From contig NZ_CP058986.1 of assembly GCF_019278525.1 (NCBI RefSeq), positions 2,018,001 to 2,082,000 on the forward strand: a stretch of 64,000 bases of DNA. The letters are read 5' to 3'. This stretch comes from Polaribacter sp. HaHaR_3_91. GTDB taxonomy: Bacteria; Bacteroidota; Bacteroidia; Flavobacteriales; Flavobacteriaceae. The stretch's first letter is position 1. The number at the start of each line of letters is the position of its first letter. Below, in pieces: positions 12,962 to 24,690 of this stretch. Below the pieces are notes generated by a model that worked only from the letters and a program-made list of their open reading frames with translations, made no database searches and had not been told where the DNA came from. The position numbers and the translations under genes are program-made.

Positions 12962-13621
12962 ATGAATATTTTAAAGCCTGTTACCTTTCTAAGTTTATCA
13001 ATATTATTAATTTCTTGTTTCGGTTTTACTGATAAAAAAGAAACTCAAACTGAAACCAAAGCAAGTTATACTGCTAAAGAAAATACCAAAGTCGCCTATT
13101 TTGCAAGTGGCTGTTTTTGGTGTGTAGAAGCTATTTTTGAAAGTGTAAGTGGAGTAGAAGAAGCTGTTTCTGGTTATGCTGGCGGACATACGTTAGACCC
13201 AACATATAAAAGTATTGGAACCGGTAAAACAGGACATTCAGAAACTGTAGCCGTGTATTACAACCCCGAAAAAGTTTCTTTTGAAACGTTAGTTACCGTG
13301 TTTTTTGGTTCTCAAGATCCAACAACAAAAAATGGACAGCATCCAGATTACGGAACACAATATAGGTCTATTGCTTTTTATGAAACGGCAGCAGAAAAGG
13401 CAATTATAGAAAAAATGATTGAAAAATTAAATGCAGAAGTGTACAATGGTAAAATAGCAACCGAAGTTACCAAGCTTAAAAAATTCTACAAAGCAGAAGA
13501 ATACCACCAAGATTTTGAACATAGAAATCCGAATCAAGGGTATATAAAAGCGGTTTCTATACCAAGATTAAATAAATTTAAAAAAAGGTTTCCAGCGTTG
13601 TTGAAGACAAATAAACATTAA
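12962..13621 (+). CDS. msrA: Peptide-methionine (S)-S-oxide reductase MsrA, lipoprotein form
   Basis: MsrA reduces methionine-S-sulfoxide in damaged proteins. The 219-residue product has a lipoprotein signal (LLISC, Cys19) followed by a ~25-residue linker and the catalytic domain: GCFWCVE (nucleophile Cys51), GYAGGHTLDPTYKSIGTGKTGHSE, then YGTQYRSIAFY and KAEEYHQDF. The lipobox places it in the envelope rather than the cytoplasm. It is monocistronic, with unusual hairpins in its leader and a terminator after it. Confidence 0.95.
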   Translation: MNILKPVTFLSLSILLISCFGFTDKKETQTETKASYTAKENTKVAYFASGCFWCVEAIFESVSGVEEAVSGYAGGHTLDPTYKSIGTGKTGHSETVAVYYNPEKVSFETLVTVFFGSQDPTTKNGQHPDYGTQYRSIAFYETAAEKAIIEKMIEKLNAEVYNGKIATEVTKLKKFYKAEEYHQDFEHRNPNQGYIKAVSIPRLNKFKKRFPALLKTNKH

Positions 13622-13643
13622 AGAATAGGTTTTATATATTGAA

Positions 13644-13674
13644 AAAAGCAACTCATTGAGTTGCTTTTTTTTTG
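13644..13674 (+). terminator. Rho-independent terminator of msrA
   Basis: The stem AGCAACT/AGTTGCT with flanking A and T runs (nine T) lies about 22 bases after the msrA stop. Confidence 0.9.
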
Positions 13675-13972
13675 TTTTTAGCTGTTATACTTTAAATATA
13701 ATGATTCAAGAACTAAAGTAAATGAGAAGAAAATATTATATAGTTATTTAATAATAATTAATTTCATCTTCAGTTACAATTTAATATTAGTTCCAAACTT
13801 CTTTTAGAAGCTATTAAAACAGGCTTTTGCTATCGCTAAATCGGGATTAACTTATAATAATTATTATAGAAGTGTTTTAGTGAAAAATTAATGAGTTTTT
13901 CTTGTTTTTTACCACAGTACTTTGTTCGCTGTAGTTTTTTCAATTCAGATTATTAATTAAGATTCAAGTAAA
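13675..13972. other. Gene-free segment beside the cassette island
   Basis: AT-rich DNA without supported genes lies between msrA and the first island gene. No repeat of the island type was recognised here, so the downstream border of the island is not defined. Confidence 0.35.
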
Positions 13973-14056
13973 ATGAAAAAAAACATATTTTATAAAATTA
14001 TTGTTATAGAATTAATTTCAATTGGTCTTTTTCTTTTCTTTTATTTCGCTAAATAA
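13973..14056 (+). CDS. Possible 27-residue membrane peptide
   Basis: A short ORF encodes a lysine-rich start followed by one hydrophobic stretch and a terminal FAK. It overlaps the 3' end of the frameshifted minus-strand gene. Size and composition fit a small membrane peptide, but chance in AT-rich DNA is just as likely. Confidence 0.15.
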   Translation: MKKNIFYKIIVIELISIGLFLFFYFAK

Positions 14057-14454
14057 ATTTAATATAAACCATAAAAATGTTCTTACAAAAGTCACTATTA
14101 TAGACATTCTTAAAAACTCTTTTAAACTTAATTTAAATTCATAACCAATATATGTGAGTAATGAAATCCAAAAAAGAACTAATATTCCAACAAAAAAAAC
14201 AATTCTATCATAAAACAATTCAGAATTATTTTCCTTTCCGGCTAATAAGTAAAAAAATATAAAAACTGATAAAATATTAAGTATGACCCAACAAATTGAA
14301 ATTGCTAATGAAACTCCGACAGTTATAAAAATTCCCTCTTCAAGAATATTATGTTTAAAAATATATAATTGTAAAAACTTAAAAATAATATTCCTAAAAA
14401 TATGATTAGTGAGTTTTTTTGTATCGGTTCAATTTCAAATATTTCTTTTATCAT
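14018..14454 (-). pseudogene. Frameshifted multi-pass membrane protein
   Basis: Reading from the ATG at 14454 gives an N-terminus MIKEIFEIEPIQKNSLI with one hydrophobic segment, which hits a stop just after IIFLKREFL. A different frame continues from about 14346 (ILEEGIFITVGVSLAISI), stays open and carries two or three more membrane helices to the stop at 14018 (ending KEKKKTN). A single-base indel near 14346-14360 would restore a protein of about 145 residues. The family is not recognised. It lies upstream of the first clear island repeat and may be cargo. Confidence 0.5.
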
Positions 14455-14486
14455 AGAGTTAATTCTGAGTATGAGTGAGCAATTGC

Positions 14487-14621
14487 AGCTAACGGTCTCG
14501 GCGATTAGTAGTTGCGTGGTTTAGCACTAAACTTTGCAAGTACACACCAAACTGAAAATCCGTGAGGATTTTCAGAAGTAGGCGAGAACAAGCAATTGCT
14601 TATTATAGCCATTGTTGTAGC
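14487..14621 (-). repeat. attC-like repeat A (subtype 2)
   Basis: The repeat is bounded by GCTAAC on the left and GTTGTAGC on the right. It contains GTTGCGTGGTTTAGCAC, the hairpin GAAAATCC/GGATTTTC, GTAGGCGAGAAC and AAGCAATTGCTTATTATA. It lies seven bases past the stop of the DinB-like gene. Confidence 0.7.
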
Positions 14622-14628
14622 AAGTTTT

Positions 14629-15189
14629 TTAATTTTTTAAGTCATCAGAGAAATGTCCCTTATGTTTCCCTTTTGAAAATTTGTCTTTGTTAAATTCATT
14701 TGATTTTCCTTTCGGGATAGTCAAACTTTTCCATTCGTTTCCTTTAATCATTTTTCCTATGTAAACAATCTGCCCGATATGATAAGGATAATGAGCAAAT
14801 TGTCGATTTATAGCTTCCAAAATTGAGTGTTCCTGATTTCTGATATAAACTTTTGTTTCAAAATTATCTTCGTTCACAGAGTCTAACGCATCGAACAGAC
14901 ATTTCCATCCGTCATTCCATTTTTCAAGCAATTCATTTTTAGTTTTTATCACCGATTCAAATTCCAAATCTCTTTTCCGCCATTCTTTTTCTCCGTCAGA
15001 GGTCAAAAAATCGTTCCAGCGAGATTTCATATTTCCCCAAAGGTGGTTTACGATTATTGCAATTGAGTTTGAGTCTTCGTTAAACTGCCAAAAAAGGTAT
15101 TTTTCCTCTAATTGGTCAAATGTTTTTTCTCCGACAGATTTGTAATATTCAAATTGCTTTTTAACACTATTTATATATTCGGTTTTCAT
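14629..15189 (-). CDS. DUF1572/DinB-superfamily protein
   Basis: The 186-residue soluble protein has the DinB-like four-helix pattern with metal-site histidines: SIAIIVNHLWGNMKSRW (first His), INRQFAHYPYHIGQIVYIGK (HYxxHxGQ motif with two His) and a tail KSLTIPKGKSNEFN. DUF1572 proteins relate to bacillithiol-dependent or other thiol-transfer DinB enzymes, but the reaction is unknown. It is the cargo of one unit: repeat A follows its stop by seven bases, and a degenerate repeat lies 24 bases before its ATG. Confidence 0.8.
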   Translation of the reverse strand: MKTEYINSVKKQFEYYKSVGEKTFDQLEEKYLFWQFNEDSNSIAIIVNHLWGNMKSRWNDFLTSDGEKEWRKRDLEFESVIKTKNELLEKWNDGWKCLFDALDSVNEDNFETKVYIRNQEHSILEAINRQFAHYPYHIGQIVYIGKMIKGNEWKSLTIPKGKSNEFNKDKFSKGKHKGHFSDDLKN

Positions 15190-15212
15190 TCAGCGTTTCT
15201 TTTTTTCAAATT

Positions 15213-15282
15213 GGCTACGTTGATGTATAAGAATAGTAGCGGATTTTCATTCACTAACTTTCCGGATTAACAAAGACCTTTT
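15213..15282 (-). repeat. Degenerate attC-like repeat B
   Basis: Starts GGCTACGTTGATGTATAAG. GCTAC is the inverse of the GTAGC at the other end of this unit, but the AAC of the core is missing. The middle lacks the standard hairpins and no right-hand core was found before the next gene's stop. It looks eroded or belongs to another subtype. Confidence 0.4.
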
Positions 15283-16458
15283 TTATATTTTCAATACTTT
15301 GGTTTTAGCGACTAAATCGCTATTATTTTTATCCATTGTTGGCAATAGTATTTTATAATCAAATGTCAAAGACAATAACAAGAAGGGCAATACCATATTA
15401 AAATAACTAATATCAAAACTTGAATCAAATAGAGTTGTCTTAAATCCACTATAATAAATTGATGTAAAGAATGCTATTGATACAGGTAGTAATAGAAAAA
15501 TAACGATCAAATATATTATTGATTTTATGTTTTTTGCTCGAAAAGAATATATCATTGGCGCTATGATTAAAATAAGACTTAATATGCTAGGTAATTGTCT
15601 GTTTTGAAGTTCAAAAGGATTATGTTTATAAAAGTGTTCCAAACTGCTAACTTTGTTAAAACAGATATATGAAAATAATATAATGGTAGCTAAAGATACT
15701 GCTATAAAAGTTATCTTTTTTTGTACGGAAAATCTGTAAAAGTGCTTGAAAAATAATATTGAAATTGGGATAATAGCAGTAATTCTGGTCATTACCAAGG
15801 ATGTCAATAAAAATGATTCTAATAGTGTGTTGTTTTTTATGTTTCTAAAAATTCTATCTTGCATAACAACAACAACAGCTAAAATTATAATAAAATTAGA
15901 CATCAAATCACTTTTAACATATATTTCCCAAAGGTATGAAGGTGAGCCTATTACAAGTAATAAACATAATAGCCTTTCCTTATAAGTGTTAAATACTTTC
16001 GATATAATATAAATAAATAATAAAAATGCAAAGGATTGTAAAAATCCAATATTACCTAAAAAATAGAATGGAATTCCAATGAAAAGAAGGGTAGGTAAAT
16101 TTGAAGTTCTTCCATTCAAATGGTCTACTGCAGAATAAGGATACTCACCATTTAAAAGAGCTTTTACACCAACTTCCATTGCTGACCATCTGTCCACCAT
16201 AAGCGAATTACCATCTACATTAATGTTTATATAAATTGTAAAAACAAAGAAGAGTATAGAAGTAATATAAAACAAAGGTTTATAATAATTCTTTAAATTT
16301 AATCGAATGTATACAATACTAATTATTGATATCAATAATGTATAAATAAAGGCTACAACGTAGCCATTTAAAACATCTATTCTGCTAGCATATTTAACTA
16401 CAAAAAGAGTATTTATAAAAATAAAAATTAAATATGTAAATGATAATCTTTGCTTCAT
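15283..16458 (-). CDS. Polytopic membrane protein, GT-C glycosyltransferase-like
   Basis: The 391-residue protein has about ten hydrophobic helices. The first loop carries WSAMEVGVKALLNGEYPYSAVDHLNGRTSNLP; the GEYPYS motif and a long loop after TM3 are typical of GT-C/GT87-like polyprenyl-phosphate-sugar transferases. The substrate is unknown. A longer reading from 16557 would place its first 33 residues inside repeat C, so the ATG at 16458, five bases from the core, is chosen. Base composition resembles the neighbours. Enzyme class is inference. Confidence 0.6.
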   Translation of the reverse strand: MKQRLSFTYLIFIFINTLFVVKYASRIDVLNGYVVAFIYTLLISIISIVYIRLNLKNYYKPLFYITSILFFVFTIYININVDGNSLMVDRWSAMEVGVKALLNGEYPYSAVDHLNGRTSNLPTLLFIGIPFYFLGNIGFLQSFAFLLFIYIISKVFNTYKERLLCLLLVIGSPSYLWEIYVKSDLMSNFIIILAVVVVMQDRIFRNIKNNTLLESFLLTSLVMTRITAIIPISILFFKHFYRFSVQKKITFIAVSLATIILFSYICFNKVSSLEHFYKHNPFELQNRQLPSILSLILIIAPMIYSFRAKNIKSIIYLIVIFLLLPVSIAFFTSIYYSGFKTTLFDSSFDISYFNMVLPFLLLSLTFDYKILLPTMDKNNSDLVAKTKVLKI

Positions 16459-16463
16459 ATTAT

Positions 16464-16598
16464 TGACAACGTGGTTGTGTATGATTTCGTTGCGTTGGTT
16501 TAGCAGTAAAGTTACTAAATAATTACAGACCAAGAAAGTCTGCGAGGAATTTCGCAAGTAAGCAAATAGCCAGCAATAAAGTTTATACGGTGTTTGGT
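16464..16598 (-). repeat. attC-like repeat C (subtype 2)
   Basis: Bounded by GACAAC and GTTTGGT. The internal hairpin around AAGTCTGCGAGGAATTTCG is a variant of the subtype 2 hairpin, followed by GCAAGTAAGCAAATAGCCAGC. It separates the GT-C-like and WG-repeat units. Confidence 0.65.
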
Positions 16599-16608
16599 AA
16601 AGTAATTT

Positions 16609-17796
16609 TTAGAATTCAGATTTTATTATTTTAACTATAAATTCTCCTTTTGTGTTTATTAACCCTTTTTCACTAATTCCTTTAGAATCATAGTTTATTG
16701 CAAAAGCTTTTCCATTTATTAAGTTTATTATTTTGGCAAACTGTTTACTTACAATTTCCTTTTTAGAATTTATAATTACTGTTTTTCTATTAGACCTTAA
16801 TACTGCAATCGTTTTTTGTTCATTAACTAAAGAAATTAAATTTGATTTAGTAGCTTTTACTTCAATTTCTTTATCAAATGAATTGATAATTTTACCATTT
16901 ATGTCAATTAATTTGACATCTGAAGAATAATAACTGTCTTTCACTAAAGCAAAGCCTTTATAAAAATCAGTTACATCATCATATTTTGCAGGAATAATTA
17001 ATTCTCCATTACTATCAATATAGCCTTTTTTCCTTTCTTTATTTGTAACAATAGCTCTGTTAGAATGAAAATCACCAGGTTTTTGGGTATATTTAAAAGA
17101 GATTTTTTCATTATTTTTTGAGTCAATAAATCCCCATAAATAATAGTTTCCTGATAATTTACAAACTGCAACTAATCCATTAGAAAAATTTGAAGATTTG
17201 TCATATTCTGGTGTAATTACAATTTTATTAGATTTATTTAAAAAGCCTATTTTTTTAGTTTTTCGATTCTTAATTTGTTTTAATCCATCATAAAACATTT
17301 CAACGTTCTTACTGCTCATTGCTTCAAAGACTTTCATACTTGAAGACAATTCATTTAAACCTAATTGTTTATTTATTTCCTTTTGGTTGTAATCACATAT
17401 TATGTTTCCTTTTAAGTCAATAAATACTTCTTTATCGTCATTCGTAATTGCCCAAGTATTATCAGTAATGAAAGGTTTTATTTCTTTAAATTTATACTCG
17501 GTAATTGGATTTTTGTTAAAATCAATTAATCTATATAGTTTCGTATTATTGTCAAAATCATAAGTAACACCTTCATAAAAACTGAAGGTTGTTAAATTCT
17601 TATCGTATTTTTTAAATGTGATCTTTTCAGCTGTAACGTTTCCAAGAGTATCAACTAATGCAAACCCATCATTTTTTAATATTCCAAAAGATACTCCATT
17701 ATAGTTTTTCCCAAAATCATTTGCTACAACTTCTTTTTGAGAATAAACAGAATTGACTAATAATAAAAAAGTAATTGTAATAGTTCCTATTTTCAT
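16609..17796 (-). CDS. WG-repeat protein, secreted
   Basis: The 395-residue protein has a signal peptide (cleavage near VYSQ19). Several WG/KWG-type beta repeats follow, such as KKIGFLNKSNKIVITPEYDKSSNFSNGLVAV, LWGFIDSKNNEKISFKY and KKGYIDSNGELIIPAKYDDVTDFYKGFALV. WG repeats build propeller-like or solenoid domains in exported proteins; the binding partner is unknown. Its unit ends GTTTGGTAAAGTAA and (inverse) GTTAGGTAAAATAA agree at 12 of 14 positions. Confidence 0.85.
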   Translation of the reverse strand: MKIGTITITFLLLVNSVYSQKEVVANDFGKNYNGVSFGILKNDGFALVDTLGNVTAEKITFKKYDKNLTTFSFYEGVTYDFDNNTKLYRLIDFNKNPITEYKFKEIKPFITDNTWAITNDDKEVFIDLKGNIICDYNQKEINKQLGLNELSSSMKVFEAMSSKNVEMFYDGLKQIKNRKTKKIGFLNKSNKIVITPEYDKSSNFSNGLVAVCKLSGNYYLWGFIDSKNNEKISFKYTQKPGDFHSNRAIVTNKERKKGYIDSNGELIIPAKYDDVTDFYKGFALVKDSYYSSDVKLIDINGKIINSFDKEIEVKATKSNLISLVNEQKTIAVLRSNRKTVIINSKKEIVSKQFAKIINLINGKAFAINYDSKGISEKGLINTKGEFIVKIIKSEF

Positions 17797-17809
17797 TTTT
17801 TTTTATTTT

Positions 17810-17942
17810 ACCTAACGTGTTTTTGTATGGAAATTTGCGTTTTAAGTCGACGGCTATTTTCCGAAGGAAAATAGGAGTTGACAAAAATGCAAAAACCTTT
17901 GATTAAGCCAAATATAGCAATTTTTTATACAAGGTGTTGGGC
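17810..17942 (-). repeat. attC-like repeat D (subtype 1)
   Basis: Bounded by ACCTAAC and GTTGGGC, both matching the integron core consensus. The central hairpin is TTTTCCGAAGGAAAA, followed by TTGATTAAGCCAAATATAGC and TTTTTTATACAAGGTGTTG. The TIR gene stop lies four bases beyond the core. Confidence 0.75.
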
Positions 17943-17946
17943 AATG

Positions 17947-19143
17947 TTATTGATATTTAACTACTGTTTTATGGCTTCTCAAATTTTTTAAAAATGATTT
18001 TATTGTATTTCTACTTACTTCAATATTTCCTTTATCTAAATTTTCACAGAAGTCTATTGTTTCATCTGGATTATTTCCAACTTTGTGGTAATTAGTTCCC
18101 AGAATTATCCAAAAAGATTTTTCTTCTCTCATTCTTCTTTGTACTCCAAATTCTTTTAAATTTATAATTTCGTTGTTAATTTCCGCATAACCATTTACCA
18201 TTTCATTATGGCTAACGATTATTCCATTATCTAATATTCCAACAGAGTTTTCTTTTCCTCCAATATCGGAGGTTATATTAAAAGGTTCTAAACTTTCAGA
18301 TTTTATTAATATAAATTCATTTTGTAATGTTGGATTAAACGAAATCCACATGTCAGATATATTTAACTCCCAATTGTAGCCAGTTGTTGTCCAATTTCCA
18401 TTTTTTAATTTAGTGAAGTGTTTTATATAGTCATCTCCTCCCGAAAATCTAAACCACATATTTTCCAGCATTCCAGAATTGCTTAAATTAAATAAAAGTC
18501 TATTTTGACTTTTTTTATCACTAATTTTATGTATTCCAGAATTTAATGTTGGAAAAGATTTTGCTAGAATTTCATTAAAAGGGTATAAACTCATTTTAAA
18601 GCAATTATCCCATTCCGAAAATATCTCCTTTTCATTTTTAGAGTTTCTGAAATTTTTAGTTAATTTCTCAGCTTCTTCTATAAATGACTTTATTTGTACA
18701 TTCAAAATATTTAAATCATAATCAATGTTTAAAATTTTCTTAATATCTTCTATTAATTTAATTAAATCATTTTCATTTAATATTTTAAGTCCTAAACGGT
18801 TTAAGTTAAGAAATCCTATTTTATCGAAGCTTATATCTGGAAATAATAAAGGAATTGTACAATCTTTCTCTAAGGCTACCCAAGAAGCTCCAATTTCATT
18901 TATACATACTTCACTTTTTTTGTAGTTCTCAGAGATAAAGAGTAATGAAATAGAAGCTGAATTAATTTCAGTTTTTAATCTATCTGGAATATATTCTCCG
19001 CTTTTCACATCATAGCCTTTTATACTTGTACAAAAAATTCTATTGTATTCAATGTTCAAGCCTAGTTGCAAAATTTTTTCTACAAAAAGTCTTACTATTT
19101 TTATATCCTTAGATGAATGGCTTATAAAGATTTTCTTTTTCAT
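17947..19143 (-). CDS. TIR-domain protein with unknown C-terminal domain
   Basis: The 398-residue protein starts with a TIR domain (residues ~1-140): KKIFISHSSKD, the BB-loop region around GYDVKSGEYIPDRL, and SISLLFISENYKKSEVCINEIG, where Glu83 is at the position of the NADase/conserved Glu. The remaining ~250 residues have a helical linker and a beta-rich domain (WNWELNIS-like segments, GGKENSVGILDNGIIVSHN) that is not recognised. Bacterial TIR proteins are often anti-phage NAD-depleting effectors. Here it is island cargo. The defence role is inference. Confidence 0.8.
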   Translation of the reverse strand: MKKKIFISHSSKDIKIVRLFVEKILQLGLNIEYNRIFCTSIKGYDVKSGEYIPDRLKTEINSASISLLFISENYKKSEVCINEIGASWVALEKDCTIPLLFPDISFDKIGFLNLNRLGLKILNENDLIKLIEDIKKILNIDYDLNILNVQIKSFIEEAEKLTKNFRNSKNEKEIFSEWDNCFKMSLYPFNEILAKSFPTLNSGIHKISDKKSQNRLLFNLSNSGMLENMWFRFSGGDDYIKHFTKLKNGNWTTTGYNWELNISDMWISFNPTLQNEFILIKSESLEPFNITSDIGGKENSVGILDNGIIVSHNEMVNGYAEINNEIINLKEFGVQRRMREEKSFWIILGTNYHKVGNNPDETIDFCENLDKGNIEVSRNTIKSFLKNLRSHKTVVKYQ

Positions 19144-19153
19144 ATTTAATATT

Positions 19154-19286
19154 GCCCAACGTTGTTGTATATTGAAAGTTGCGTTTAAAGTGAACGGCTA
19201 TTTTCCGAAGGAAAATGGATGTTTACAAAAATGCGACTAGTTTTGTAAAGCACTAATTTAGCAATTTTTACTATACGGTGTTGGCA
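19154..19286 (-). repeat. attC-like repeat E (subtype 1)
   Basis: Bounded by GCCCAAC and GTTGGCA, with central hairpin TTTTCCGAAGGAAAA and GCAATTTTTACTATACGGTG at the right. The GCCCAAC end is the exact inverse of the core at the other side of the TIR gene. Confidence 0.75.
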
Positions 19287-19910
19287 TTAGTTTTTTTTAC
19301 TTTCAGAATATTTACTTTCAATTTCATTTTTCCAATTTTCAAAGTTAATTTTATTCATTCCTTTATTTAAAATCAGATTAGAATTCTTTTTCAGTTTCGT
19401 AACTATTGACTTGTGATTTGGTTTTTCTTTGGTAAAGTTCCATTCAGTTTTTAATCTGCCATATTCCCAAAAATTATATTCATCTTTTATTGAATTTTGT
19501 AATTTATTAAGATCGTAATTATTCATGCGTTTTCCATTTATTCTTGGGTCAAAGAGAATAATTCCATAAACACAAGGAAATCCTTTTTCATTTCTCCAAT
19601 TGTAACCAACAATTACTGTAAATCCATTAATTTTTCCAATTAAATAATCTTTTTTGTGTTTAAAACCAATTTTCATTAATTCCGTAAAAGGATATTTTTT
19701 TAATTCATTTACTCTCTTTTTTGGGCCAAAAAAAACATCATAAATATAATAAAGTGTTCCTAAAAATATAGAAACTCCAAATATTAAGTAAGTAATATTT
19801 ATAATTCCATTTATATTAAATTTTCCTGATATTATAAACGAAAAAAGAAACACCAATAACATTGATGAAAATGAAATTATTGCTTTTCTGTAATATTCAA
19901 ATATTTTCAT
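19287..19910 (-). CDS. Hypothetical membrane protein (island cargo)
   Basis: The 207-residue protein has two N-terminal membrane helices (residues ~10-30 and ~38-62) and a basic cytoplasmic region of ~140 residues with a FTVIVGYNWRNEKGFPCVYGIILFDP strand block. The family is not recognised. Its stop codon directly touches the core of repeat E and its ATG lies 11 bases from the core of repeat F. Confidence 0.6.
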   Translation of the reverse strand: MKIFEYYRKAIISFSSMLLVFLFSFIISGKFNINGIINITYLIFGVSIFLGTLYYIYDVFFGPKKRVNELKKYPFTELMKIGFKHKKDYLIGKINGFTVIVGYNWRNEKGFPCVYGIILFDPRINGKRMNNYDLNKLQNSIKDEYNFWEYGRLKTEWNFTKEKPNHKSIVTKLKKNSNLILNKGMNKINFENWKNEIESKYSESKKN

Positions 19911-19921
19911 TTTTTAATTAA

Positions 19922-19993
19922 TGCCAACGTGTTTGTATATGGTTTGTTGCGTGGTTTAGCACGTAATTTAGCAAATAAAAACCGAATAGAAAG
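19922..19993 (-). repeat. attC-like repeat F, left part (split by IS)
   Basis: Starts TGCCAACGTGTTTGTATATG and continues with GTTGCGTGGTTTAGCACG and TTTAGCAAATAAAAACCG, then is interrupted by the IS. Together with 21426-21488 it makes a 135-bp repeat. Confidence 0.7.
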
Positions 19994-20027
19994 TGAAGTG
20001 CACCCAAATGTTTAGACAAATTTATAA

Positions 20028-20816
20028 TTAATTTTGATAATAATTAGCTCGATATTCAATCGGGCTCATTCCCTTTAAATTTTGTTTAATTCTCTCATTA
20101 TTATAATATTTTATATACACTTTAATCTCTTTTTTTAATTGAGATATCGACTTGTATTTATTTATATAAAACAATTCAGATTTTAGAATACCGAAGAAAT
20201 TTTCTATCACAGCGTTATCTAAACAATTTCCTTTAGGAGACATACTCTGAGTAATTCCTTTTTCTGTTAATAATCTTCGATACTGTTTCATTTGATACTG
20301 CCATCCTTGATCTGAATGTAATATTAAATTTGTTTGATCTGGTATTTTCTTAAAAGACTTTTTCAGCATAATAGCTACTTGTTTAAAATCAGGTTTTTCA
20401 GATAATTGATAATTTATTATTTCTCTATTAAAGAGATCAATTATTGGAGATAGATATAGTTTTTTTCCTAAAACTTTAAATTCTGTAATATCGGTAGCCC
20501 ATTTTTTATTTGGCCTAATAGCTTTAAAATTTCGTTGTAATATATTAGGAGCTGTTTCGCCTATTTGCCCTTTATAAGACTTGTATCTTTTAGCTCTGAC
20601 TAAACTTTTTAAACCTAATTCACGCATTAACTTGAGTACTGTTTTATGATTTATTAGAGTTCCTGTTTTGTTGATTTCTAAAGAGATTCTTCTATAACCA
20701 TATCTTCCTTTGTGACGATGATATATTTGATGAATCAATAGTTTTATCTCTTTATATTTATCAACTATAAGACTTCTTTTATGATGATAATAATAACTAC
20801 TTCTTGCCATGTTCAT
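20028..20816 (-). CDS. IS3-family transposase OrfB (DDE catalytic part)
   Basis: The 262-residue reading has the IS3-type helix-turn-helix remnant (IHQIYHRHKGRYGYRRISLEI) and an rve-type DDE integrase core: WATDIT (first Asp), HSDQGWQYQ (second Asp) and GNCLDNAVIENFFGILKSE (Glu). All catalytic residues are present. The -1 frame relative to OrfA is open back to about 20870 (AKAITELRHKYDLDILLY), so the working protein is probably an OrfAB fusion made by -1 frameshifting near C-AAA-AAG at about 20871-20877. Confidence 0.92.
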   Translation of the reverse strand: MNMARSSYYYHHKRSLIVDKYKEIKLLIHQIYHRHKGRYGYRRISLEINKTGTLINHKTVLKLMRELGLKSLVRAKRYKSYKGQIGETAPNILQRNFKAIRPNKKWATDITEFKVLGKKLYLSPIIDLFNREIINYQLSEKPDFKQVAIMLKKSFKKIPDQTNLILHSDQGWQYQMKQYRRLLTEKGITQSMSPKGNCLDNAVIENFFGILKSELFYINKYKSISQLKKEIKVYIKYYNNERIKQNLKGMSPIEYRANYYQN

Positions 20817-20860
20817 ATGATATAATAAAATATCTAAATCATACTTATGCCTTAATTCTG

Positions 20861-21382
20861 TTATGGCTTTTGCTTTTTGTTTTGCTCTTGTTGAATTAAG
20901 GCCTGTAACTTTTTTAGCAAGTCCAGTTCTGCACGTAATGATTCATTTTCTAATAAAAGTTCCTCTTCTCTTGTTAAAGGTTTATTAGACTTTTTTTTAG
21001 CCCTCTTAAATTGCATAGATTTTGGTTTACCTCTAGGTTTAATGTTTAAGCCTATAATACCCTCTTTTTTATAATTACGTTGCCACTTCATAATTACAGA
21101 TTTTGTAGGAATATTAAATTCTAAACAAGCTTGACTGAAAGATAATGAATCTTTGTCAATAGCTTTTAAAACTTTAAGTTTAAAAGGAATGCTATACACT
21201 TTTGTTTTTCTTGGTAATAGTGCTTTTTTACCATATTTTTCATAAAATCGAATCCAATCATGAAGGGTTGTATGATGACAACCATATAACTTAGACACAT
21301 CTTCAACTGTTTGGTTATTTTTTAAAACTTGCTTTACACATCGAAGTTTAAATGCGTAATCATACTTGACTTTTCTTCCCAT
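20861..21382 (-). CDS. IS3-family transposase OrfA (helix-turn-helix)
   Basis: The 173-residue basic protein has two helix-turn-helix units (residues ~8-45 with VEDVSKLYGCHHTTLHDWIRFYEKYG, and ~65-100 with LSFSQACLEFNIPTKSVIMKWQRNYK) and a C-terminal leucine zipper-like helix (EELLLENESLRAELDLLKKL) for multimerisation. This layout is typical of IS150-group OrfA. It binds the IS ends. Confidence 0.9.
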   Translation of the reverse strand: MGRKVKYDYAFKLRCVKQVLKNNQTVEDVSKLYGCHHTTLHDWIRFYEKYGKKALLPRKTKVYSIPFKLKVLKAIDKDSLSFSQACLEFNIPTKSVIMKWQRNYKKEGIIGLNIKPRGKPKSMQFKRAKKKSNKPLTREEELLLENESLRAELDLLKKLQALIQQEQNKKQKP

Positions 21383-21425
21383 AATAATACCCTCAAATAG
21401 TGTCTAACTTTTTGGGAGCAGTTCA

Positions 21426-21488
21426 AAATCCGCGAGGATTTTCGTAAGTAGGCGAGAACCAAGCAATAAATTATATACGGTGTTGCCC
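21426..21488 (-). repeat. attC-like repeat F, right part (split by IS)
   Basis: Continues AAATCCGCGAGGATTTTCG (subtype 2 hairpin), GTAGGCGAGAACCAAGC, TTATATACGG and ends in GTTGCCC. The stop of the DUF695/RraB gene lies seven bases beyond. Confidence 0.7.
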
Positions 21489-21495
21489 ACAGTTT

Positions 21496-22338
21496 TTATT
21501 CCTCAATTGATGTTTCCCAACCATCATAATCTCCATTTAATTCAGATGCTTTTTGCCATAATTCCAATGTATATTCATCTATTTCGTCATAACCAACTTT
21601 GTCAATTCGTGATATTTGAATAACAAACTTATATTCGTTCGGTTGTTCTGTTTTTCCTTTATTTTTTGTCTTAAAACCTAAATCATTTGTAAATTTCTCA
21701 AATTGGTCAATTTCATTTTGAGTTTTAAAATAAACCCAATGAAAAACCTCTCTTTCTTTCGTTAGTTTGTCTCCACCTTTTTCTAATTGTTCGAGAACTC
21801 TTCTGTTTTGGATTATTTGCATTTGTCTTGGCAAAGGATATAGAAAGTCAAAATATCCGTTCCATTCTTTATCTTCATTATGTCCAAAGTCAAATTTGTG
21901 ATTCGGAAATTGGGTCATTGCAGATGAGACTTCTTTTTCCATTAAAATCGTGTTTTCTCCAAAAAAATACAAATCTCGAAATCCATTAGAAGTCAATCGA
22001 CCAGCAAAAGTGTAATTCAGATTTTTTTTGTCAAATCCGCTTATTATTACGTCTTCAATTTTCGATAATTCATCCGCATCTTCGTTACTCGACAATCCAT
22101 TATCTTTCGGATTAGGCATTTTGATTGAAACATAAACTACAATTTCTTGTCCTTTTATTGGCGCAACATTCATTAAATTCAAATCGGTTGCAATTGAACT
22201 TAATTTGTCATTTACATTCGAAAAGTAAAATGTCCAATCAGGTTGATATTCATTTTTCGGTTCAGATTGTCCGAAGATTTTACTTAAAAATCCCATAAAT
22301 AAAATAAAGGTTAATATGTTTCGATGATGTTTTTTCAA
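21496..22338 (-). CDS. DUF695 and RraB-like two-domain protein, exported
   Basis: The 280-residue reading starts with a TTG codon; KKHHRNILTFILFMGFLSKIFG then gives a credible signal peptide, and no ATG lies upstream. Residues ~30-150 match DUF695 (PDWTFYFSN, QEIVVYVSIKMPNPKDNGL, SKIEDVI). Residues ~185-275 match the RraB/DUF1260 fold (REVFHWVYFKTQNEIDQFEKFTNDLGF, ISRIDKVGYDEIDEYTLELWQKASELNGDYDGWE). RraB regulates RNase E in enterobacteria, but the fused exported form has no known role. The TTG lies five bases from the repeat G core. Confidence 0.7.
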   Translation of the reverse strand: MKKHHRNILTFILFMGFLSKIFGQSEPKNEYQPDWTFYFSNVNDKLSSIATDLNLMNVAPIKGQEIVVYVSIKMPNPKDNGLSSNEDADELSKIEDVIISGFDKKNLNYTFAGRLTSNGFRDLYFFGENTILMEKEVSSAMTQFPNHKFDFGHNEDKEWNGYFDFLYPLPRQMQIIQNRRVLEQLEKGGDKLTKEREVFHWVYFKTQNEIDQFEKFTNDLGFKTKNKGKTEQPNEYKFVIQISRIDKVGYDEIDEYTLELWQKASELNGDYDGWETSIEE

Positions 22339-22343
22339 ATTGT

Positions 22344-22476
22344 GGGCAACGTGTTAGTCTATGGAAAGTTGCGTGTTTGTGTGCGAGGATTTTCCGAAGG
22401 AAAATCAAATGTAGCAAACGTGCAACGACCTTTGTTTAAGCACAAAACCAGCAATTTTTTATATACTGTGTTGTGC
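22344..22476 (-). repeat. attC-like repeat G (subtype 1)
   Basis: Bounded by GGGCAAC and GTTGTGC. Contains TTGCGTGTTTGTGTGCGAG, hairpin TTTTCCGAAGGAAAA, TTTAAGCACAAAACCAGC and TTTTTTATATACTGTG. It is closely similar to repeat H. Confidence 0.75.
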
Positions 22477-22484
22477 ATAGTTTT

Positions 22485-22988
22485 TTATTTCTCCGGTACA
22501 AATTTAAATGGTAAAAGGAATTTCACTTTAACTTTTTTATTTTTAGTTAATTCAGCAGGTTTCCAGTCAGGTAACTTTGAAATTACATCATAGCAAGATT
22601 TGTCAATATGATTTTTAAATCCTTCTATAATTTCAATATCAACAACTTTTCCTAATGTGTCAACAACAAATGTCGCTTTAACTTTTCCCTCAACTTTTTC
22701 AATAAACCCTTGTTTAAAAGCAAAGTTATTTTGAATAAATATTGTTAGAGAATCTAGTCCGCCAGGAAATTCAGGCATTTTCTTTAAACTCATAAAATTT
22801 ATTTGCTCATCATTTTCGTCTAAAAGTTGGTATTCCAAGTTCAGCGAATTTTGCGATTCCACTTTTTTAAATTCCGATTGAGTGATTTCATTTTCAGAAT
22901 CAGAATTGTTTTCCGTTTCTGTTTTTTCCGAATTCTTACAAGAAATCAGAAGTAAAATGGTCAATATAATTCCTATTTTTCTATTCAA
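22485..22988 (-). CDS. TonB C-terminal-domain lipoprotein
   Basis: The 167-residue protein begins at a TTG codon (the frame is closed by TAA seven codons upstream and no ATG intervenes). It has a lipobox LLLISC (Cys17), an acidic linker and a TonB-like C-terminal domain: MPEFPGGLDSLTIFIQNNF, VEGKVKATFVVDTLGKVVDIEIIEG, KLPDWKPAELTKNKKVKVKFLLPFKF. Such stand-alone TonB_C lipoproteins lack the inner-membrane anchor, so they do not act as canonical energy transducers. It is island cargo. Confidence 0.75.
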   Translation of the reverse strand: MNRKIGIILTILLLISCKNSEKTETENNSDSENEITQSEFKKVESQNSLNLEYQLLDENDEQINFMSLKKMPEFPGGLDSLTIFIQNNFAFKQGFIEKVEGKVKATFVVDTLGKVVDIEIIEGFKNHIDKSCYDVISKLPDWKPAELTKNKKVKVKFLLPFKFVPEK

Positions 22989-23010
22989 TTCGTCAGTTTT
23001 CTCAAATTAT

Positions 23011-23144
23011 GCACAACGGTTACGTATATGAAATGTTGCGTGTTTGTGTGCGAGGATTTTCCGAAGGAAAATCAGAAGCTAGCAAACAAAGCAACTAACA
23101 TTGGTTAAGCACAAAATAGCAATTTTTTATATACAATGTTGTAT
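23011..23144 (-). repeat. attC-like repeat H (subtype 1)
   Basis: Bounded by GCACAAC and GTTGTAT, with GTTGCGTGTTTGTGTGCGAG, hairpin TTTTCCGAAGGAAAA, GGTTAAGCACAAAATAGC and TTTTTTATATACAATG. GCACAAC is the inverse of the right core of repeat G across the intervening gene. Confidence 0.75.
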
Positions 23145-23154
23145 GCAGTGTTTT

Positions 23155-23571
23155 TTATTCATTCAGTTTTATAAAAATCAGAGTCGCACAAATAATTAAC
23201 AAAAACCAAAATAAATAACCATAAGCTCTTATTTTTTGTGCTTGTCGATATTTTTTTTCAAAACCATATTTTTCAAATCGTTCCATTTCAGATTCCGTAA
23301 AATGGTCTTCTCTCCATCTCGGTTTTGTCGTAAAAAAAGGTAAAATGAAAAAAGAAAACATTTCCTCATTTGTTAGAGGTTTGTCTTTTCGGTCATTTTG
23401 AAATTTCTTATATTTTAAGTAATCAGATTCAATTTCAGTTTTTTGTTCCTTTGTCAAATTCCGAGAATTAAATTCAGATTCTGCTTTTTTAATTTCAGTT
23501 TTGTCAGTTCCGTTTTTTATGATGTCAAATAATTCGACATTTGAATATCTATAAATCTTTTTGTCAATCAT
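23155..23571 (-). CDS. Hypothetical tail-anchored protein (island cargo)
   Basis: The 138-residue product is charged and helical, with one C-terminal membrane helix (residues ~113-134, AYGYLFWFLLIICATLIFI). A longer reading starts at GTG 23586; the ATG at 23571 is preferred because it leaves an 18-base gap to the core, as in other units. The family is not recognised. It is the first unit of the array in the direction of transcription. Confidence 0.55.
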   Translation of the reverse strand: MIDKKIYRYSNVELFDIIKNGTDKTEIKKAESEFNSRNLTKEQKTEIESDYLKYKKFQNDRKDKPLTNEEMFSFFILPFFTTKPRWREDHFTESEMERFEKYGFEKKYRQAQKIRAYGYLFWFLLIICATLIFIKLNE

Positions 23572-23589
23572 AAAGGTGCTGTTCACATT

Positions 23590-23615
23590 GCATACAACTT
23601 GTTTATATACTTACT
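23590..23615 (-). repeat. Truncated attC-like end I (array boundary)
   Basis: GCATACAAC is the exact inverse of the right end of repeat H across the unit. Similarity to the repeats continues for about 15 more bases (TTGTTTATATACTT) and then stops. The upstream repeat is truncated here, or this is a different type of attachment site. Confidence 0.5.
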
Positions 23616-23799
23616 TTAACTCCTCATATCTTCCTTTATTAGGGAAATATGCTCAATTATTTAAGTTTTTTGTTTGAAATTCTTTCATAGCAAATAAGGG
23701 AAGAATTTTTCATGATAAAAGTACAATTTATATGGTGTTTATATAGATTAACTTATTAACAGTAATTTGTTAATTATCAACCTTAAAAAGACTTCATTT

Positions 23800-24036
23800 T
23801 TGTCATTTCGGTTTTAAGAGAAGTCGCATAACAGTATTACCAAAAACCAGAGCAACTTTATGGGACTCCTCTCGAAAAGTGCTCTAATTGTGAGGGTTTG
23901 TACCATTAAAACCAAAAAAGATACATCAGAGTATAAACGGTATAGTGCCCTTTGTATTTAATCAAAATAGTCCACGAATTAGATGACTTCTATAATTTCG
24001 ACCTTTTAGAGAAATCACTTATAGGAACATCATTTA
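23800..24036. repeat. Eroded REP-like sequences upstream of the island
   Basis: A GTCATTTCGG ... GAGAAGTCGCATAA arm faces TTATGGGACTCCTCTC as an imperfect inverted repeat (23812-23880). A second piece, ATTTCGACC..TTTAGAGAAATCAC, lies at about 23995-24021. No gene is visible in 23616-24112. Confidence 0.4.
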
Positions 24037-24112
24037 TAAAATTTAACTAATGAGATTTCACGTAAAGCTATCTTAAGTTTAATAGAGTCATAGAAATATT
24101 TATTTCTTTTAA

Positions 24113-24143
24113 CAAAAAAAGCCTCACATTTCTGTGAGGCTTT
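24113..24143 (-). terminator. Rho-independent terminator of ompH/skp
   Basis: An 11-bp stem AAAGCCTCACA/TGTGAGGCTTT is followed on the minus strand by a U-run (seven T), 25 bases past the stop. Confidence 0.9.
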
Positions 24144-24168
24144 ATAGTAAATATTTTGAGAGAAAAAT

Positions 24169-24690
24169 TTATTTCCCTTCTGCAACAGGAATTGCAATTC
24201 CTAAGTTTTTTAAGACTAATTCTGTAATATCAAATTTAGTATCAATGTAAGCAAATTCGTTACCAGTCATGGTTAAAATTTGAGTGTACCCTTCAGCTTT
24301 AGCTACAGTAGCAATAGCATTACTTAATTTTTTATATAAAGGTCTCATTAATTCGTCTTGCTTTAATTGCATTAATTGGTTTCCGTTTTGCTGGTATTTT
24401 TTAATATCAGCTTCCATTTCTGCTAATTCTTTGTATTCAGCTTGTTTTGCTAATTCTCCAAGCGTTTTTTCATTCTTTTTAAAAGCTTCTATTTTAGCTT
24501 TATAAGTTTCTACTTTTATGGTAAAAGAAGAATCTAATTTTGCTCCGTAATTTTGAGATCTTTCTGATACAATTTTTGTTTCAGGCATTAGGTTAATAAT
24601 ATATTCACTATCTACTGTACCTACTTTAGATTGTGCAATAGAAATAGAACTAATTAAAGCAAAGGCAATACATATAATTTTTGATTTCAT
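24169..24690 (-). CDS. OmpH/Skp-family periplasmic chaperone
   Basis: The 173-residue protein has a signal peptide (cleavage after SIAQ) and the Skp pattern: KVGTVDSEYIINLMPE, then a long charged coiled-coil (residues ~45-115, TYKAKIEAFKKNEKTLGELAKQAEYKELAEMEAD), then a beta cap with KAEGYTQILTMTGNEFAYID. Skp-like trimers hold unfolded outer-membrane proteins in the periplasm. It lies 57 bases after miaA and probably ends that operon. Confidence 0.9.
   Translation of the reverse strand: MKSKIICIAFALISSISIAQSKVGTVDSEYIINLMPETKIVSERSQNYGAKLDSSFTIKVETYKAKIEAFKKNEKTLGELAKQAEYKELAEMEADIKKYQQNGNQLMQLKQDELMRPLYKKLSNAIATVAKAEGYTQILTMTGNEFAYIDTKFDITELVLKNLGIAIPVAEGK

Follow-up and report, generated by a model that had tools for sequence, protein, structure and literature searches.

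A cassette array without a local integrase in Polaribacter and its relation to a candidate Bacteroidota integron system

Cassette arrays without an integrase gene nearby raise the question of which enzyme has built them. This question is posed by positions 14487-23598 of a 64,000-nucleotide stretch of the Polaribacter sp. HaHaR_3_91 chromosome (contig NZ_CP058986.1, 2018001-2082000), which was analysed as a whole and is here called the window. The segment is a cassette array of seven near-complete sites of 133-135 nt, one decayed site and an attI-like head, in which eight minus-strand genes have sites at their 3' ends. The genome has 13 matches to PF00589, all of them outside the window, in agreement with a preliminary description that had found no tyrosine recombinase there. 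That description had taken the locus for a cassette array of the integron type with no integrase nearby, a reading that our analysis supports, and had offered two origins, a remote array of a chromosomal system or a distinct flavobacterial-type cassette system; both of these hold. We consider it highly probable that the window carries a satellite array, similar to a cluster of attC sites lacking integrases (CALIN), of a Bacteroidota integron system whose recombinase, of a type with 371 amino acids (aa), recombines folded sites.

Cassette ends, folded sites and cassette movement

The sites were found directly and with a covariance model, R1, built from six repeats of the window, and both approaches confirmed that the array is real. 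Because of this origin, the R1 scores within the window are a matter of construction. At E ≤ 0.01, R1 gave 56 matches in 464 kb of the own genome, 8 of them in the window and 48 in 400 kb outside it, and it matched 35 of 36 same-genus genomes (own genome included). A custom model of this kind had been proposed as a check in the preliminary description, and its scores in other arrays and genomes were far above background. An open reading frame (ORF) of at least 50 aa was present in 126 of 155 cassettes, and the longest one was in the sense orientation in 96 of these. One very long array, in genome G013 (L190, L215-L218), contains several near-identical cassettes of about 300-350 nt whose longest ORFs are short and antisense.

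Read in the direction of its gene, a cassette opens with GTT and about seven bases of its own and closes with the reverse complement of this 10-nt sequence; the tags of neighbouring cassettes differ. Such pairing would arise because exchange at GTT leaves each site of an array a hybrid, whose outer arm finds its partner at the opposite end of the same cassette. In the window, end complementarity is 10/10 for four cassettes and 9/10 for one; the others agree at 7/7 and 6/7 variable positions and at 2/10. Of the cassettes that could be tested in the own genome, 38 of 46 match at no fewer than six of the seven variable positions, whereas such agreement is seen in 1 of 52 comparisons within single sites and in 123 of 2915 when all pairings are considered. 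These cassettes derive from the 56 model hits, the rest of which had no same-strand neighbour within 12 kb or no readable core. The 19 loci of relatives gave the same picture, with matching ends in 98 of 116 cassettes, in 15 of 149 comparisons within single sites and in 696 of 20506 pairings. Complementarity of R'' and R' of one cassette and a G/TT boundary, by which integrons are recognised, were both found, and the exchange is placed within CGTT. The core had been described beforehand as RYYYAAC/GTTRRRY; its GTT stands, but GTTRRRY proved too strict, the true core being the looser GTT plus about seven cassette-specific bases.

Comparison between genomes shows the single-gene cassettes, each with its terminal attC-like site, to be the units of movement, with exchange at GTT beside the cassette-specific tag of about 7 nt. 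Two single cassettes are common to the own genome and to G001, another species of the same genus, with 92.9% and 93.4% DNA identity; their neighbours are unrelated in the two genomes, and identity starts and stops at CGTT. A stretch that both genomes have in common elsewhere is 82% identical. Sharing of cassettes between genomes at the protein level was rare, with 3 pairs over 126 cassettes of the regions first fetched, one of them clear.

The folding of the sites was examined in 38 divergent sites, which were aligned by sequence alone after eight, mostly low-scoring ones had been left out of the 46 picked. As these sites had been found with a structure-aware model, the sample leans towards pairing. 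In a 15-bp inner stem, 92.8% of the cells are paired and 12 of 15 pairs have changed on both sides. The covariation score of this stem is 0.52, against 0.143 for shuffled and at most 0.095 for slid pairings, and the same stem is predicted by RNAalifold. In the bottom-strand reading, G.T is found at one stem pair in 35 and at another in 27 of the 38 sites. These pairs would be C.A mismatches on the top strand, which suggests that selection acts on the bottom strand. When six window sites were folded as single strands, the z-score was better for the bottom strand in five. When the sites were modelled in the circular form, the predicted bottom strand was more stable than the top strand in 123 of 123 sites, which are related and thus do not represent independent trials; 17 of 140 sites had no matching partner and were left out. 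The ends of the modelled circular form close on the bottom strand in 122 of these sites, and those of the array form in only 21 (bottom) and 14 (top). The imperfect inverted repeat, bottom-strand hairpin and R and L arms that characterise attC were found, with r2 as an exception in the single-strand folds.

The recombinase and the attI-like site

An intact gene for a 371-aa tyrosine recombinase is present at 2980378-2981493 of the genome, and an array of 13 sites begins 0.55 kb downstream of it. A duplicate of about 3.8 kb, 98.5-98.9% identical and with a frameshifted copy of the recombinase gene, lies upstream of a second array, of 10 sites. Homologues were found at E ≤ 1e-30 in 34 of 59 genomes, own included. 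Sites lie downstream of the gene in all 20 regions considered around same-genus homologues (from 19 genomes; matches that contained stops, lay at a contig edge or came from other genera were excluded), and the first of these sites is within 2.5 kb of the recombinase gene in 18 regions. A computed check placed 150 of 150 sites downstream of the gene and in the same orientation, and the other 37 of the 187 sites read alike in the table. In a wider genome scan, 40 of 80 loci were examined, mostly from Bacteroidota; sites were found in 12 of these, and the geometry is the same for 37 of the 39 sites. Across 196 genomes of the order, sites are present in 35, the recombinase in 53 and both in 25 (odds ratio 11.9, p-value of 1.1e-9, uncorrected for relatedness). 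Three Bacteroidota loci (L140, L137 and L133, two of them Marinilabiliaceae) encode recombinases of 675-718 aa on a separate branch, and weak matches to the site model lie downstream in L140 and L137.

Where the first cassette of an array starts was determined independently, as the partner of the tag of the first detected site, in the own genome and the 19 loci of relatives. In 14 of these 20 loci the start is located 99-237 bp after the gene of the 371-aa type, each time at the motif TATAA(A)CNAGTT, with one mismatch in two of the 14. Comparison of the loci thus shows arrays to begin at what appears to be an attI site downstream of the tyrosine recombinase gene, with cassettes co-oriented with this gene. 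An attI beside the integrase gene, with cassettes inserted there, is an arrangement that defines integrons. The attI-like motif also follows the recombinase gene on the 66-kb Chryseobacterium plasmid NZ_CP041688.1 (L229), together with weak matches to attC-like sites (22-38 bits), so that plasmid-borne forms exist.

The head of the window array begins with a 14-mer that occurs exactly twice in the 4.2-Mb genome and not at all in the reversed control; its last 13 nt are present at both recombinase copies. The copy that the preliminary description had placed at 23590 and considered a decayed repeat is not one. It is a lone half-site, the upstream side of which agrees over about 19 nt with the attI-like site of the genome's own recombinase. 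The second exact 14-mer, at 2853500, was rejected as an attI: it is part of an unrelated local inverted repeat, and the surrounding 14 kb yielded no site. Upstream of the window head, no significant remnant of a recombinase was found. Since an attI-like site begins the window array and no integrase is encoded there, the array was most simply built in trans or left behind.

The suggestion made beforehand to search the whole genome for IntI-like recombinases had a divided outcome: a recombinase that heads arrays was found elsewhere in the genome, but none of the 14 matches to TIGR02249 in the complete genome exceeds the cut-off of 265 bits. The 371-aa recombinase itself reaches 192 bits. Its best NCBIfam match is to a XerA-type family (208 of the required 220 bits), and its closest solved relatives by sequence are XerA and archaeal Xer (5hxy, 4a8e). 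The insertion specific to IntI is absent, as the spacing between K and H is 64-66 aa in the measured Bacteroidota recombinases, and 65 aa in the own-genome copy, versus 107 aa in seven IntI proteins. In a quick tree, 10 IntI rows form one clade (100) with the Bacteroidota recombinases outside it, and a joint clade is still compatible with the data (p-value of 0.487). A Foldseek search with the predicted recombinase structure places IntI4 (2a3v) first. At the N-terminus there is an extra domain, in which Pfam recognises HARP in 2 of 17 members (best E-value of 8.4e-4) and DUF5710 in 5 of 17 (2.6e-3); the domain is possibly HARP-like, which we regard as a lead short of an assignment.

That the system works like an integron is well supported by these comparisons of sequences. 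Because the insertion typical of IntI was looked for and is absent, we set the system down as an integron variant of the Bacteroidota whose recombinase fails a defining IntI test. We propose that the recombinase (copy 2980378-2981493) would bind the folded bottom strand of a cassette's site and recombine this site with attI or with another site. The window array would have been built in trans by this recombinase at an attI-like spot between msrA and ompH. More tentatively, the HARP-like N-terminal domain might help to handle single-stranded or junction DNA, replacing the IntI insertion in this role.

The window array and its locus in relatives

The individual features of the window array are listed below in the order of the cassettes, with sites given in plus-strand coordinates from core to core. 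Sites r1, r2, r3, r4, r6 and r7 are in part the source of R1, as marked with their scores.

23596..23609, minus strand: attI-like array head, TATATAAACAAG, then the GTT side of cassette 1
23145..23598, minus strand: cassette 1; gene 23155-23571 for a small protein of no known family, without a Pfam match; ends complementary at 10/10
23011..23144, no strand: attC-like site r7; R1 133.1 bits (partly source of the model)
22477..23017, minus strand: cassette 2; gene 22485-22988, TonB_C domain (Pfam); ends 10/10
22344..22476, no strand: attC-like site r6; R1 142.7 bits (partly source of the model)
21489..22350, minus strand: cassette 3; gene 21496-22338, DUF695 and RraB domains (Pfam); ends 10/10
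19922..21488, no strand: attC-like site r5, split by an insertion sequence (IS); two halves present, the right half with R1 28.9 bits
about 19995..21424, minus strand: IS3-type insertion sequence within r5; transposase ORFs 20028-20816 and 20861-21382; Pfam rve / HTH
19287..19928, minus strand: cassette 4; gene 19287-19910, without a Pfam match; ends 10/10
19154..19286, no strand: attC-like site r4; R1 133 bits (partly source of the model)
17943..19160, minus strand: cassette 5; gene 17947-19143 for a TIR-domain protein (Pfam TIR_2); ends 7/7 variable positions
17810..17942, no strand: attC-like site r3; R1 144.6 bits (partly source of the model)
16599..17816, minus strand: cassette 6; gene 16609-17796 for a WG-repeat protein (Pfam); ends 9/10
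16464..16598, no strand: attC-like site r2; R1 103.9 bits (partly source of the model)
15283..16470, minus strand: cassette 7; membrane protein gene 15283-16458, without a Pfam match; ends 6/7 against the decayed site
15208..15349, no strand: decayed attC-like site; R1 41.9 bits, E-value of 5.5e-6
14629..15189, minus strand: cassette 8; DUF1572 / DinB-like gene, Pfam 244 bits; start boundary decayed, ends 2/10
14487..14619, no strand: attC-like site r1, at which the detectable array ends distally; R1 90.7 bits (partly source of the model)
14018..14486, minus strand: probably what is left of a further cassette whose gene is broken; r1 is followed by a motif resembling a cassette start, and a 66-aa ORF is the sole one of at least 60 aa

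The seven near-complete repeats of about 133-135 nt reported beforehand are thus borne out, one of them being split by the IS element, and the degenerate copy noted at 15213 corresponds to the decayed site. Equally, the genes are single, all lie on the minus strand and have a site after their 3' end, as had been described. No site was found beyond the remnant at 14018..14486, and a search of window positions 13500-24500 against Rfam gave no match at E ≤ 0.1. The element in r5 has imperfect terminal inverted repeats, as read from its sequence, and no clear target-site duplication. In the own genome (L048, L049, L050, L051, L058), the first transposase ORF of an IS3-type element is located exactly 63 bp from a site in 8 of 11 copies, as if the element targeted attC-like sites.

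The comparison of the locus across related strains that the preliminary description had called for showed that its gene content is not fixed. Three relatives have retained the flanking genes but carry no site at this locus: their matches to msrA and ompH are separated by 94 bp, 1.2 kb and 1.35 kb, as compared to 10.5 kb in the own genome. Ten regions were fetched, the other seven of which (six genomes) do not show msrA and ompH together. A base-level comparison with an empty site gave no result, the intergenic DNA of the three relatives being too diverged (best attI match 12/18). The movement of cassettes, which had been proposed for examination together with the locus, is seen in the single cassettes that were found in unrelated contexts of another species. 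In genome G029, about 0.64 Mb separates the msrA region from the ompH region, and a site is found close to msrA (L201:5574-5714), which suggests a rearrangement through an array.

Alternative explanations, known systems and implications

Several observations weigh against the assignment of the window array to the system of the 371-aa recombinase. With respect to the sites, r2 folds worse on the bottom strand (z-scores of -0.20 versus -1.03), and in the circular-form model the ends close on the top strand nearly as often (116 of 123 sites) as on the bottom strand. The longest ORF is antisense in 30 of the 126 cassettes with an ORF of at least 50 aa. Six of 20 loci have the nearest partner of their first detected site 568-1561 bp away and without the attI motif, and the agreement between the window head and attI extends over only about 19 nt. 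The first site is far from the recombinase gene in 2 of 20 regions, at 6.5 kb (L193) and at about 8 kb (L195, a partial homologue with a single 32-bit site), and the two sites of L126 are upstream and divergent. Lastly, 28 of 53 recombinase-positive genomes have no site according to the genus-tuned model, and 10 of 35 site-positive genomes have no recombinase at the cut-off.

The latter observation would fit the view that the cassettes are moved by another resident tyrosine recombinase, of a 466-507-aa type or XerC/XerD, alone or together with the 371-aa type. The genome offers candidates, since 11 of its 13 PF00589 matches are other genes. One of them encodes a 489-aa tyrosine recombinase upstream of the 371-aa gene in both copies (L047:17949-19418; duplicate near 3034436), and its relatives (466-507 aa, 43-64% identical) are encoded at 3689126-3690526, 3758347-3759849 and 3792784-3794184. 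At three places of the own genome this longer type lies 1.2-1.8 kb from sites with no 371-aa type near, which also counts against our interpretation. On the other hand, the oriented linkage of sites to the 371-aa type in 20 of 20 regions, the attI-like site directly after its gene and the genome-level co-occurrence are properties of the 371-aa type. The longer type was found in only 2 of 20 relatives' regions and 2 of 12 named loci, all of them chosen around the 371-aa type, so that its absence from the other 18 regions is an uneven comparison. The 466-507-aa recombinase may cooperate with the 371-aa type, compete with it or be a passenger, and we judge it improbable that another recombinase is what moves the cassettes. 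Slightly less probable still is that the window holds the remnant of an ordinary IntI-type integron that has lost intI, i.e. a classical CALIN. This would explain the overall layout and the folding, which are the same, and it would agree with the Foldseek match to IntI4, with the joint clade that the tree does not reject and with the listing of Bacteroidota among the integron-bearing phyla in excerpts of PMC8618304. It is opposed by the failure of every protein of the complete genome to pass the TIGR02249 cut-off and by the lack of the IntI insertion in the very recombinase that heads the arrays.

We give hardly any credence to the view that the repeats are fixed intergenic elements or insertions resembling miniature inverted-repeat transposable elements (MITEs), with genes being shuffled by homologous recombination. 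The repeats are similar enough for some recombination, and there is the rearrangement near one of them in G029. However, this view fails to predict the paired, cassette-specific ends, the ending of identity at GTT inside a repeat and the site-free locus of three relatives, and in its simple form it is refuted by the cassette-end test. An origin as MITE or IS was likewise rejected, because terminal inverted repeats common to all copies are lacking: the terminal tags are alike at the two ends of one cassette but vary from cassette to cassette.

A satellite array of a Bacteroidota integron system remains our preferred reading, and this system can be set beside known ones. With chromosomal (sedentary) IntI integrons it has in common the recombinase gene, attI, long arrays of single-gene cassettes, folding attC-like sites and exchange at GTT. 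It differs in that the recombinase has no IntI insertion, possesses an extra N-terminal domain and is placed outside the IntI clade in the quick tree, and in that the inner stem is about 15 bp, the core consists of GTT plus a cassette-specific tag, and the cassettes are co-oriented with the recombinase gene, the usual orientation of IntI genes being divergent from the cassettes. XerA resolves chromosome dimers at dif, whereas the present recombinase, although related to XerA and archaeal Xer, is attached to cassette arrays and has the extra domain. In XerCD-dif modules, 28-bp dif sites flank each module, whereas the boundaries here consist of GTT plus a cassette-specific tag. The likeness to CALIN, as treated in parts of PMC8618304 and PMC9024848, is one of layout, an array without a local integrase; the sites of the window are of a Bacteroidota type recognised by R1. 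Integrases of the IntI type have a specific insertion around patch III according to sections of PMC9668308 and PMC8138268, and this insertion is not fully conserved in an integron-like subgroup in the relevant section of PMC8138268. For Bacteroidetes, excerpts of the IntegronFinder 2 article (PMC9024848) report integrase-only elements and one complete integron, in Salinibacter. In Riemerella anatipestifer, excerpts of PMC13148043 describe a homology-free integration of a gene by an unexplained mechanism; the unit, consisting of a gene with 27 bp before it and a 140-bp attC-like hairpin after it, is the same as here, but no recombinase or attI is named in these excerpts. In the portion of the open-access literature covered, we recognised no description of such arrays or of the recombinase as an integrase; subscription papers and preprints are outside this scope.

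A relative of the recombinase is also found next to tet(X3). A plasmid search with the recombinase gave 208 records, and in the two that were examined (L231, an Acinetobacter baylyi plasmid, and L232, pHH1107 of an uncultured bacterium) a relative with 54% identity over residues 145-371 is encoded about 190 bp upstream of tet(X3). Both tet(X3) copies have retained their 5' edge and a portion of the 3' site, and a complete pair of cassette ends was not found at tet(X3) on these two plasmids. Close tet(X) homologues are present in 24 of 395 genomes of the order, and 12 loci were examined. In five of them (L233-L237; 86-87% identity) the gene lies between perfect 10-nt complementary ends, one 24 bp ahead of it and the other 17 bp past its last matched codon. 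The site model has a match immediately upstream in each of the five and immediately downstream in three (19-39 bits). Three upstream and five downstream contexts are represented among these loci, with identity beginning within a few bases of GTT and mostly ending at GTT or shortly after. No such cassette ends were found at the other seven loci (61-63% identity). Cassette ends at tet(X) are not mentioned in the excerpts of PMC7494873 and PMC7722449 considered.

In a broader interpretation, towards which we lean with some reserve, the Bacteroidota would have an integron class of their own, with a XerA-like integrase that has lost the IntI insertion, or never possessed it, and carries a HARP-like domain for DNA junctions. 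This class would be widespread in the order, would have been missed because the available tools seek IntI, and would have been the platform of the first mobilisation of tet(X) and other resistance genes. If true, genes would be captured through folded sites by an integrase without a feature held essential for integron recombination, and the role of the IntI insertion and the origin of integrons would become testable. An identifiable enzyme, attI and attC would also be at hand for a large class of Bacteroidota gene traffic, of which little is reported in the excerpts of PMC9024848. Lastly, the system is a candidate explanation for the homology-free gene uptake in Riemerella described in parts of PMC13148043, and for the origin of mobile tet(X), the homologues of which are cassette-bounded in 5 of 12 loci.

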